Part shown: in pieces, positions 44,266 through 47,945 of the stretch
How the letters are laid out: each line of letters begins with the position of its first letter
How positions within the stretch are numbered: the stretch's first letter is position 1
From: Synechococcus sp. M44_DOE_062
GTDB lineage: Bacteria; Cyanobacteriota; Cyanobacteriia; Thermostichales; Thermostichaceae
NCBI GenBank assembly: GCA_015295985.1
Contig: DVDX01000061.1
Location: forward strand, 1 to 56,218
Direction: 5' to 3'
DNA length: 56,218 nucleotides
Made by a program: the position numbers and the translations under genes
The notes under the pieces: generated by a model
What the model saw: the letters and a program-made list of their open reading frames with translations, nothing else
What the model was told of the DNA's origin: nothing
Databases searched by the model: none

Positions 44266-47200
44266 CTAGCTCTGAGGTGCCGAATCTGGCAACAGACACC
44301 CCAAAGCATCACACCCTGCCGGCCCCTCTGCTGTCAGGGTTAGGTTGCGGTCGTAGCGGGCCAGGGCTGCAAAGAAGTTGTCTGTCCGCCGTCTCTTCTT
44401 GACCTCGGCCACTAGCCGCTCGTAGGTGGGCTTGTCAATTTTCTCAAAGGGCAGACGGGGGAAGGGCGCATCGAAGCGGGCCAGCAGCGCTGCGCTGATG
44501 TATCCCTCGTCATCACGGATGGCTTCGTAAATGCGGGATCCCAGGGCTTCCACCTCGTCTTCCCTTAGCTCAATGGTGGCGGAGGTGTTGTGGGTGGTGT
44601 AGTACTTCTGAACCTGCATATAAAAGTCAAACTGGGCCAGGGCCGAGAATTGCTCGATCTCGATCTGGTCGGCACCGGGCAGGTTGGCCCACTCTACTTC
44701 CACAGGCAGTTCCACCAGCCATTCGGTACAGCGGGGATCAAAGGGGTCGTTGAGCAAGTTCCCGTTTTCATCTTTGTCCGCTTGGGCAGGCACCACCGAG
44801 TAGCCGTAGTCCAGGCAGGCCAGCGCCACCGGGTCATTTTTGGCAAAGGTAATGCGGCGGATATAGCGTTGGGCCTTGGGCGGGTGCCAACCGGGAGAGG
44901 CGTTGGTGAGCAGAGACTTGGTGCCGGCGGGCTGAACTGTGGTGCAGCGGTTGGGGCGACGCAGGCTGTGGCGGTCGCAGTAGTCCCACACCACGCGGTG
45001 GACAATCTCCTTCCAGCGGCTGAGGTATTCCCGCTCCTGCTGCTTGAATTCCTTCCCAATGGGTGTATCCGGTCTCCCTTCCTGCCACCAGCGCAGCCAC
45101 TCTACCCCAAAGGCTTTGACGCAGAAATCGAACAGCCCTGTGAACGAGACGCCGACGATGGGATCCCATTCTCGCGAACGCTGAAAGCGAGGTTCCACAA
45201 AGCGGTGGTGAAGCAGAGCTGCCACCGTGAGGGCTCCCGCCGTAAAGGCATCTTCCTGCTCCTGCCGGTTGTGGGGATCCAAACGGTTGAGGTGGATCTC
45301 GGCCAAGTTGCATTGCCCGGTCAGTGTGCCGCCGAAGACGCCCTTGTGGAACTCCGGCTCATTGAAGCAGAAGCTGTCGTGCAGATCTGGGAGCGGCTCC
45401 ACAGAACGAATTACCTGCCACTTTGCCTTGGCTTGGGGTACATGGCCTCTGGATGTGTCCACTCGCTGACAGGGAATGGCGGCACAGTCTGTAACTTGCA
45501 GATACCACAGATCCTTTCGTCGCCTGCCCAGGTTGGTCTCGCTCCCGGCCTTGGCCGCTAGGTTAATGGAGGAGCGAATGCCGCACTTCAGCAGCAGCAG
45601 GTACAGGCGATAGGCCCGATCATAGCCAGAGACATAGAGCCGCACTCCACCAGAGGAAGTTGCCGAACCGTCCGCATCAATCAGCCCGGCAATGAAGTGC
45701 AGGATGCCCTCACGGTTCCACGCTGCCAGTTTTTCCAGGGCTTGGGCTTCTGTCTTAAGGGCCCGTACCTGTTCGGGATCAAATTCGTGAAAGCCCGTAT
45801 AGAGCAAGCAGGGGATTGAGGACTCTGTCCCTGTAGCATAGTACCGGAGTTGACCGGAAGTCCGACCGGCCAAAGTCAGATTGCGGTAGCTCTTGGCTCC
45901 GTAAAGACGTAGCTGTAGCTGCGGCCTACCGTTGGACTTGCACAGGGATCCATCTCCCACCAGTTGACCCAGAGTGTAGGCCCAGATGGGATCGACTAGC
46001 TCGCCGTCGCGGTAGTCAATTTGGAACGGCTCGGTGTGCAGGGCGTAAGGATGCCTGGCAAGGTGCTCTCTCAGTTCCTCCGTGGTGAGTTCGATATAGG
46101 TACTGCTGAACCGATCGCTCACGAAGAAGCGGTGCTGTCCCGTCACGTCCAGCCAGGTGCCATCGGCAAAGATCACGCGATACATCTGACGGTTGCGCCC
46201 CGTACATACAGGCACCACCCAACTCCAGCGGCGACCGTTCCAAATTTCCACCGGCTTCCCTACAAGGGACTGAATCGGGTGCAAACCATCACGGGTGATC
46301 AGCAGGGTGGAGCCAGCTACACAGTGGAAGTTGTGGCCGACGACTTCACCGCAGGGGTTCAGACCATAGCGCCACAGGCGATCCTGCAGTTCCTCTTCCC
46401 CTAGGGAGGGATCCCGTCCCTTCAGCCATTCTCGGGCTGTTCCTGCCTCATAAGCTTTGAGAAAGTCGGGTTTTAGGTCGGGTGGAATGAGGTCGCAATT
46501 GGCCCGCGCTACGGCTTCCCCGGCCCACTGGATGGCCCCCTCGCCTGAGTAAAACTGCTTCCGCACGGCCTCAACACATTCTTCCCGGGTCGGCTTGCGG
46601 TGAAACACCCGTGTGTGGTTGGCCATGCGCAGGGCATCTCGCTCGGGGTCAATTCTCCAGTTGCCGTTTTCGTCCTGCTGCCACAAATTGTCTTTGGCGG
46701 TGGATCCTAGCTTGTCGTCGGCAGCAAATTGGCGCATGCCTGCGCTGCGACGAATGTTCCCCGCCACAACCGTCACCGCTGCCTCGTCAATGAGCAGGCA
46801 GCATTCCACGGAGTTCAACTGCCGCCCTACTGCCCTGTTGAGAATGGCGGCACAGCGCTCGTACAAGCCGGGCAGCTTAATGGGGTTGGCCACGCCCCCA
46901 AATCCCTTCAGCCTCTCGCCGGCAGGGCGGATATCGCTCAGATCCACCGTCACGTCCACCTGACCGCCAAAGCTGGGATCCGCGGCCAGCTCCAGCAGCG
47001 CTTGGTACGAATCCACCCAGCCGCGGCGACTGTCTCCCACCTGGATGTGCACCTGGGATCCCTGCCGGTGGATGCGGGTGTGTTCCTGCCGCTCTTGGGG
47101 AGGGGTGGCGCCGATGGATCCCTTGATGTGAACCTGGAGGCGGTTGAGGATGGGAGGCAAGCGGTTGATGAATTGGGGTTCCAGCACCGCCCCTGTGCCG

Positions 47201-47625
47201 CAGCCCATCATGGCCAGATCCATCATCAGGCCAAACGCATGCCAGTCCACCACAGTGGTGCTGGTGCAGTTGTAGGCACCGGAGAAGTTTTCCGGCTTCT
47301 GGATCCAATCGGTGCCCATCACCCACAAGGCTCGACCGGAGATCAACGCCTTCAACTGCCGCTGCAGACGTTCTACCAACTGCCGCTCCTGAGGGGTGAA
47401 GCGCCCCAACCGGGCAATATCGGCCAAGGTGCGATCGCAAACCTCGCTCCAAGTCTCGCGGCTGCCATCTGGGCGGCGACGGCTGTAGGTGCGGTAGAAC
47501 ACCGGGCTGGCCGCCGGGGCTGTGGCCGGAAACTCGCCTGGAGGCGCGGATCCCGTCGTCTGGGCGGGATCAAGTCCCTGCACTTCTTTGCTCTGTTCGC
47601 CTGAGTGGGACGAAGTCCACACCAT
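44266..47625 (-). CDS. nrdJ: Adenosylcobalamin-dependent ribonucleoside-triphosphate reductase with intein
   Basis: 1119 residues before splicing and about 782 after. Class II (vitamin B12) enzyme that makes deoxynucleotides without oxygen. Conserved pieces: NCTSTTVVDWHAF (first redox Cys), GCGTGAVLEPQF, NPCGE (thiyl-radical Cys) near 425, then after the intein CNLAEIHLN with the second redox Cys; PAGTKSLLTNASPGWHPP near 910 is the phosphate-binding loop. ATG 47625 with AGGAGG upstream is chosen over the far start at 47766, whose extra 47 residues are unlike the family. No cobalamin riboswitch recognised upstream. Neighbour of pheS, with no obvious shared role. Confidence 0.95.
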   Translation of the reverse strand: MVWTSSHSGEQSKEVQGLDPAQTTGSAPPGEFPATAPAASPVFYRTYSRRRPDGSRETWSEVCDRTLADIARLGRFTPQERQLVERLQRQLKALISGRALWVMGTDWIQKPENFSGAYNCTSTTVVDWHAFGLMMDLAMMGCGTGAVLEPQFINRLPPILNRLQVHIKGSIGATPPQERQEHTRIHRQGSQVHIQVGDSRRGWVDSYQALLELAADPSFGGQVDVTVDLSDIRPAGERLKGFGGVANPIKLPGLYERCAAILNRAVGRQLNSVECCLLIDEAAVTVVAGNIRRSAGMRQFAADDKLGSTAKDNLWQQDENGNWRIDPERDALRMANHTRVFHRKPTREECVEAVRKQFYSGEGAIQWAGEAVARANCDLIPPDLKPDFLKAYEAGTAREWLKGRDPSLGEEELQDRLWRYGLNPCGEVVGHNFHCVAGSTLLITRDGLHPIQSLVGKPVEIWNGRRWSWVVPVCTGRNRQMYRVIFADGTWLDVTGQHRFFVSDRFSSTYIELTTEELREHLARHPYALHTEPFQIDYRDGELVDPIWAYTLGQLVGDGSLCKSNGRPQLQLRLYGAKSYRNLTLAGRTSGQLRYYATGTESSIPCLLYTGFHEFDPEQVRALKTEAQALEKLAAWNREGILHFIAGLIDADGSATSSGGVRLYVSGYDRAYRLYLLLLKCGIRSSINLAAKAGSETNLGRRRKDLWYLQVTDCAAIPCQRVDTSRGHVPQAKAKWQVIRSVEPLPDLHDSFCFNEPEFHKGVFGGTLTGQCNLAEIHLNRLDPHNRQEQEDAFTAGALTVAALLHHRFVEPRFQRSREWDPIVGVSFTGLFDFCVKAFGVEWLRWWQEGRPDTPIGKEFKQQEREYLSRWKEIVHRVVWDYCDRHSLRRPNRCTTVQPAGTKSLLTNASPGWHPPKAQRYIRRITFAKNDPVALACLDYGYSVVPAQADKDENGNLLNDPFDPRCTEWLVELPVEVEWANLPGADQIEIEQFSALAQFDFYMQVQKYYTTHNTSATIELREDEVEALGSRIYEAIRDDEGYISAALLARFDAPFPRLPFEKIDKPTYERLVAEVKKRRRTDNFFAALARYDRNLTLTAEGPAGCDALGCLLPDSAPQS
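45313..46323 (-). mobile_element. Intein with LAGLIDADG homing-endonuclease domain in the RTP reductase
   Basis: 337 residues, in frame. Starts at Cys1 (CVAGSTLLIT, block A), with block B V-T-G-Q-H (TxxH), endonuclease motifs LGQLVGDGSL and FIAGLIDADGSA, block F DSFCFNEPEFHKGVFGG, and ends TLTGQ before the +1 Cys of CNLAEIHLN. It sits 10 residues after the radical-site Cys of NPCGE; joining NFH to CNLAE restores the normal reductase sequence. The last two residues are Gly-Gln instead of the usual His-Asn. GGATCC occurs only once in its 1 kb that I noticed, below the local density, which fits later acquisition. Confidence 0.93.
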
Positions 47626-47945
47626 AGCCACACCCCTCCTGCTAAAGCTCGGTCGTTCCAACTTTTGAGTGCTGGTTGGCCCCGCCGACCCAATGCCCAA
47701 CCACGTTATCACAATCTTCGGGGGTCTGGTGTTGTAGGTAGTGTTGTGCTCCGAGGAGATCCTCAAGATCCTCTAGGGATAGGGCAGGCTCGCCGTCTGC
47801 CGGGGGAAGCCTCAAGGAAACGGAAGGCCCGGCAGGGGGGCTACACTGGAGGAGAGGAATCCCAAGTCGAGGGGCTGCTTGCCGTCTTTCATGGAACCTT
47901 CCTGGGCCTTCTTCCCAGTGAAGTCGTGTAAGGAGTTGTATTGTC
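47626..47945. other. 320-bp divergent gap between the reductase and the S2P-type protease
   Basis: No gene recognised. It contains the Shine-Dalgarno of the reductase at its left end. I looked for a cobalamin riboswitch because of the B12-dependent enzyme, but found no convincing B12-box or multi-stem layout. Right end: AAGGAG 12-17 bp before the protease ATG. Confidence 0.4.

Follow-up and report, generated by a model that had tools for sequence, protein, structure and literature searches.

A Gly-Gln-ended intein before the redox cysteine of a cyanobacterial B12-dependent ribonucleotide reductase is typical of its own lineage

The nrdJ gene of Synechococcus sp. M44_DOE_062 very probably carries a mobile, splicing-competent intein of the class 1 type, which interrupts a monomeric B12-dependent ribonucleotide reductase (RNR) at the Cys419 site and belongs to a lineage of inteins that end in T-G-Q or T-G-N. 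The Gly-Gln end of this intein is unusual when compared with inteins in general and typical within its own lineage. The window analysed here is the whole 56,218-nucleotide stretch of contig DVDX01000061.1, and all positions follow its numbering. In the open-access literature we found no description of a cyanobacterial intein at this insertion point (hereafter site 2) or of its Gly-Gln end.

Results

The intein lies in the only reductase gene detected in the genome

The minus-strand ORF at 44266-47766 showed no interruption of its reading frame along its full length. The likely ATG start at 47625 is preceded by 47 open codons, and an alternative TTG start at 47766 would give a precursor of 1166 residues. 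When translation is taken from MVWTSSH, the exteins join as 434 + 348 residues into a product of 782, the size that the preliminary description had given for the spliced protein. The joined exteins scored 702 bits with TIGR02505, against a curated cut-off of 340, and contain the equivalents of both C408 and C419, as is the case for a monomeric adenosylcobalamin (B12)-dependent RTPR. In the RTPR of L. leichmannii, the thiyl radical is located on Cys408 and the redox pair is formed by Cys119 and Cys419. HMMER alignment of a profile of intein-free relatives with the L. leichmannii enzyme (1L1L) placed the residue that follows the intein (Cys+1) on Cys419, and the cysteine of NPC, ten residues upstream, on Cys408. 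The earlier assignment of Cys+1 as a redox cysteine is thus in agreement with what is established for the L. leichmannii enzyme.

Searches of the same genome revealed no match to the class I small chain (PF00268), to the class III reductase (PF13597) or to another class I/II large chain (PF02867), and PF17975 (RNR_Alpha) matched the window nrdJ only. PF02867 is blind to the window RTPR itself, and the negative result for class I therefore rests mainly on PF00268. Because nrdJ is the sole reductase detected in the genome, splicing is probably essential for growth of the host, and a non-splicing allele should be lethal. The same argument supports the proposal that deoxynucleotides can be made only when the intein splices.

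The intein has the anatomy of class 1 with two of the three marks of class 3

The intein comprises residues 482-818 of the ORF (337 aa). It starts with CVAGSTLLITRDG, reads C-VAGST...TLTGQ and is followed by CNLAEIHLN (Table 1). Its boundary was set by intein-free relatives, in which NPCGEI.G.NFHCNLSE is ungapped; the insertion is in frame, is flanked by conserved exteins and is absent from homologues. A different boundary was ruled out by the same relatives, which read straight through NFHCNLSE. Accordingly, the coordinates proposed at the outset for an intein in a B12-dependent reductase proved exact, and the Gly-Gln end before CNLAEIHLN was confirmed.

Table 1. Positions in the window of the nrdJ gene, its exteins and the motifs of the intein.
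Feature	Position	Strand	Evidence
nrdJ precursor gene (monomeric class II RNR, RTPR type)	44266..47625	-	ATG (MVWTSSH...) to stop, in-frame intein; TIGR02505 702 bits; PF21995 and PF17975
N-extein, 434 aa, C-terminal end NPCGEVVGHNFH	46324..47625	-	Intein-free relatives L098, L099, L048
Cys of NPCGE, RTPR Cys408 equivalent (thiyl radical); site 1, empty here	46351..46353	-	Alignment to 1L1L
Intein, Cys1 to Gln337; predicted HINT splicing domain with LAGLIDADG endonuclease	45313..46323	-	Intein-free relatives, profile matches, predicted structure
Block B: Thr61 (B:7), His64 (B:10), Arg65 (B:11), Phe66 (B:12)	46126..46143	-	Alignments A1 and A2
First LAGLIDADG motif AYTLGQLVGDGS (Asp124)	45946..45981	-	Alignments
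Second LAGLIDADG motif FIAGLIDADGS (Asp216)	45664..45696	-	Alignments, PF14528 match
Block F: Cys319 (F:4) to His326 (F:13)	45346..45369	-	Alignment of 27 sequences
Block G: Leu-Thr335-Gly336-Gln337 (G:5 Thr, G:6 Gly, G:7 Gln)	45313..45324	-	Alignments, tree set
Cys+1, RTPR Cys419 equivalent (redox pair)	45310..45312	-	HMMER alignment to 1L1L
C-extein, 348 aa plus stop	44266..45312	-	Sequence of ORF

Profile searches with TIGR01445 (intein N-terminus) gave 24.5 bits, exactly at the cut-off, and PF14528 (LAGLIDADG_3) matched the intein at 29.8 bits, while the Pfam Intein_splicing model PF14890 missed it. Elsewhere in the genome, PF14890 matched a canonical mini-intein (C...VHN↓S, the arrow marking the junction) in the replicative helicase DnaB (G000:C66, L001). 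Both LAGLIDADG motifs named in the preliminary description are present, and the two endonuclease aspartates are conserved in the alignments. An AlphaFold2 model (mean pLDDT 78.9), for which 23 relatives were aligned, predicted a HINT fold with an inserted LAGLIDADG domain. The model, over its range 1-337, matched TliVMA with a Z score of 22.2 (297 residues aligned, 3.7 Å) and PI-PfuI along its whole length with a Z score of 21.2; in its last seven residues pLDDT fell below 50, too low for the C-terminal geometry to be informative.

Alignment of 27 sequences showed that Cys1, Thr61, His64, Cys319 and Gly336 are invariant and that Gln or Asn is always last, in agreement with the normal N-terminal half that had been described. 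The intein combines a Cys1 nucleophile and the TxxH of block B (Thr61, His64) with a cyclising Gln337 directly before Cys+1, all of them marks of class 1, and Gly336 takes the place of the canonical penultimate His. The class 3 triplet WCT (Trp B:12, Cys F:4, Thr G:5) is represented by Cys319 and Thr335, with Phe66 replacing Trp. Across the lineage, Cys1 is likewise paired with F:4 Cys and G:5 Thr, both of which belong to the class 3 triplet, and B:12 is Phe or Tyr, with one Trp. That Trp completes the triplet in the nrdA intein of Vibrio phage 1.193.O (L125), which nevertheless starts with Cys1. Since Cys1 is invariant and class 3 inteins are defined by its absence (PMC7891396), the window intein is formally class 1.

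We considered that Cys319, together with His64 and Thr335, might form the first thioester, Cys1 being dispensable or sharing this role. Such class 3-like or dual-nucleophile chemistry would account for the invariance of Cys319 and the near invariance of Thr335 in the 27 sequences and for the aromatic residue at B:12, and it has a parallel in AceL NrdHF, another reductase intein that belongs to class 3 and shares with the window intein F:4 Cys, G:5 Thr, G:6 Gly and B:11 Arg (PMC7891396). It is unlikely, however, because Cys1 is invariant in all compared sequences, B:7 carries the Thr of class 1, and among inteins generally only one residue is commoner than Cys at F:4 (PMC4031507). AceL NrdHF differs from the window intein in being split, in having Ala1 instead of Cys1, Met at B:12 and a terminal Asn, and in residing in the beta subunit (PMC7891396); it gave no match with sequence profiles A2 or A4 and was absent from the 50 structural matches listed, so that kinship to the window lineage was not detected.

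A penultimate glycine is kept throughout the lineage

The window intein carries the block F/G signature of the T-G-[QN]↓C lineage, its penultimate Gly and its RNR host. Gly was penultimate in all 46 distinct NrdJ inteins at the Cys419 site and His in none (0/46), whereas the last residue was Gln in 14 of them, the window intein included, and Asn in 32. Of 14 class I NrdA inteins, found in phages, in cyanobacteria and on a plasmid, nine ended in GQ and five in GN. Taken together, the 60 distinct inteins used for the lineage tree (46 NrdJ and 14 NrdA) showed a penultimate Gly in 60/60, with 23 Gln and 37 Asn. The nrdA intein of Acinetobacter phage P577 (L134), which was left out of the tree, ends in TMN and was the sole one seen without a penultimate Gly, and hence this feature is not quite absolute in the lineage. 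The description of the end as atypical is therefore correct with respect to inteins in general and incorrect with respect to its own site.

We also examined 80 nrdJ loci from GTDB genomes, whose selection for similarity to the window nrdJ biases the frequencies. An intein was present at the exact window insertion point in 25 of the 80, ending in T/A-G-N or T-G-Q and never in HN, and a different intein was found ten residues upstream (NP↓CGE, site 1) in 32, all of them HN-ended. Nine nrdJ genes (L012, L014, L016, L024, L034, L035, L036, L041 and L062) bear two unrelated inteins with ten extein residues (CGEI..G..FH) between them; the first is HN-ended and precedes the Cys408 equivalent, the second is G[QN]-ended and precedes the Cys419 equivalent. 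In 386 sampled cyanobacterial genomes the profile gave 29 matches: 24 were full-length, counting that of the window, and all located at the NrdJ site, and five were more distant class I NrdA inteins.

NrdJ site-2 inteins from Nostocales and allied cyanobacteria share the insertion point and the anatomy of the window intein (54-56% identity), but they end in Gly-Asn, are about 14 residues shorter and form a separate clade. The class I NrdA inteins (L122-L130, L132, L133, L152 and L154-L156, at NL↓C(S/T/Q/M)E) resemble it in their block F/G, D-T-Y/F-C...F-N-G-I-L-T-G-[QN]↓C, and in having Cys1, TxxH and LAGLIDADG motifs, with 24-29% identity over the whole length. In contrast to the window intein, their insertion point precedes the cysteine of the class I motif NLC.E and is not the class II Cys419 site, and their B:11 residue is usually Lys. 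The cyanobacterial members L132 (Nostoc edaphicum plasmid pNe_5), L152 and L154-L156 occupy the NL↓C site with the end ILTGQ↓C.

The intein is under purifying selection and is patchily distributed

A tree was built from the 60 inteins after removal of the last three residues and without an outgroup, so that it does not give the direction of Gln/Asn change. The window intein fell in a clade of 14 NrdJ inteins, all Gln-ended (SH-aLRT 98). Asn is the last residue of the other NrdJ inteins, most of which come from Nostocales and allied filamentous cyanobacteria, and the class I inteins are mixed. Well-supported branches force at least three Gln/Asn changes on this tree. The Gln codons are CAA/CAG and the Asn codons AAC/AAT, which means that each change takes two base substitutions. 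Among the Gln-clade inteins, dN/dS was ∼0.03-0.14 in each of three parts (N-terminal splicing, endonuclease and C-terminal), which indicates that purifying selection acts on both the splicing and the endonuclease regions.

We then compared the two insertion sites in five genus mates. The upstream HN intein alone occupies the site pair in G001, G004 and G005 (L097, L094 and L101, respectively), and neither intein is present in G002 and G003. G004, the nearest sequenced relative, lacks the window's intein, and its DNA is 92-94% identical on both sides of the site. Conversely, inteins in more distant cyanobacteria, of other families, are 82-84% identical to that of the window, compared to 74-78% for their C-exteins. 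At the level of sequence, a patchy distribution together with an intein identity that exceeds extein identity is the signature expected of a homing intein, and would be consistent with an active endonuclease in the window intein. A viral source for the intein was not supported: with this intein as the single query, IMG/VR yielded no relative, and the phage collection contained distant class I relatives only.

The presence of the upstream HN intein in three genus mates, and of the downstream GQ intein instead in the window genome, may reflect replacement of one intein by the other through homing with co-conversion across the ten-codon gap. In addition, tblastn matches break at residues 339-341 (precursor residue ∼340) in the nrdJ genes of G005, G006, G010, G012 and G015, which suggests a third putative nrdJ insertion site in these relatives near that residue.

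Discussion

Our analysis indicates that the window intein is real and intact, and that it probably splices efficiently. Splicing would start with a first thioester formed by Cys1, aided by Thr61 and His64; the acyl group would then pass to Cys+1, cyclisation of Gln337 to aminoglutarimide would free the intein, and an S-to-N shift would yield the 782-residue enzyme. Cyclisation of Gln to aminoglutarimide is step 3 in Gln-ended inteins, and Gln is accepted as a class 1 variant (PMC4031507). The penultimate His is not a defining requirement either, being absent in its canonical form from ∼5% of functional inteins (PMC4031507). In the mycobacteriophage RDF intein, splicing is far better with a penultimate Gly, and substitution by His slows it strongly (PMC5050341). 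The missing His is probably compensated in the window intein by the block-F His326 and by Arg65 (B:11), which all 23 NrdJ site-2 inteins of alignment A1 share. The role of the Arg would be analogous to that in AceL NrdHF, where 2.5 Å separate the B:11 residue Arg69 from the C-scissile carbonyl, splicing is slower in R69A, and activity is lost in G145H (PMC7891396). Against such compensation, Arg at B:11 is also found in some HN-ended site-1 inteins and is thus not specific to Gly-ended ones. The embedded LAGLIDADG endonuclease would spread the intein among nrdJ genes.

The preliminary description had reasoned that splicing could be slow or conditional because of the atypical end, and had named a Gly-Gln end usual at this site as the observation that would speak against it. 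This is largely what we found, since all 14 members of the window clade are Gln-ended and Gly is universal at the site. An intein gating deoxynucleotide synthesis, with splicing slowed or made redox- or temperature-dependent by its Gly-Gln end, would fit the position of Cys+1 as a redox cysteine of the only reductase detected. There is also a precedent in the Pab and Pho PolII inteins of archaea, whose slow splicing with a terminal Gln is improved by Asn (PMC4031507); both are temperature dependent, and Pab forms a Cys1-Cys+1 disulfide. We nevertheless hold such a switch to be very unlikely. The end is a trait of a lineage that extends over many cyanobacteria, phages, a plasmid and two reductase classes, with Gln and Asn alternating at the last position. 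The closest sequenced relatives do without the window's intein, and efficient splicing is known from other inteins with a terminal Gln or a penultimate Gly. According to the works cited, the RNR (RIR1) intein of Chilo iridescent virus (CIV) has a natural C-terminal Gln, and its splicing is poorer when Asn replaces this residue (Pietrokovski 1998; Amitai et al. 2004, as cited in PMC4031507 and PMC549080). As described in that literature, on which rather than on sequence our comparison is based, the CIV intein is like that of the window in residing in an RNR large chain and in its terminal Gln, and unlike it in having an insect virus as host. Because CIV splices well with Gln and the PolII inteins slowly, a terminal Gln alone is no predictor of slow splicing. 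As the PolII inteins illustrate, a Gln end can also go with slow splicing; for regulation of dNTP synthesis through splicing we found no support. A decayed intein or pseudogene, in which departure from the canonical His-Asn end marks lost splicing, is scarcely credible and was ruled out by an intact ORF in an apparently essential gene, a dN/dS near 0.1 and conservation of the same end across the clade.

The preferred reading thus remains a class 1-type intein that would splice constitutively. It is improbable that the T-G-[QN] reductase inteins are natural intermediates between classes 1 and 3, in which both Cys1 and Cys319 (with His64 and Thr335) could start splicing; if true, this would bear on a stepwise evolution of class 3 from class 1, an origin that has been judged implausible (PMC7664689). 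Conservation of Cys1 together with F:4 Cys and G:5 Thr nonetheless offers a simple test bed for class 3 chemistry arising inside a class 1 intein.

All in all, what appeared to be an oddity of one intein turns out to be the rule of a lineage, in which the penultimate Gly is kept and Gln and Asn are interchangeable, across class I and class II reductases in phages, a plasmid and cyanobacteria. Since 14 Gln-ended and 32 Asn-ended inteins share one insertion point, they form natural allelic pairs in which the cost of Gln versus Asn cyclisation is measurable without engineered mutants.
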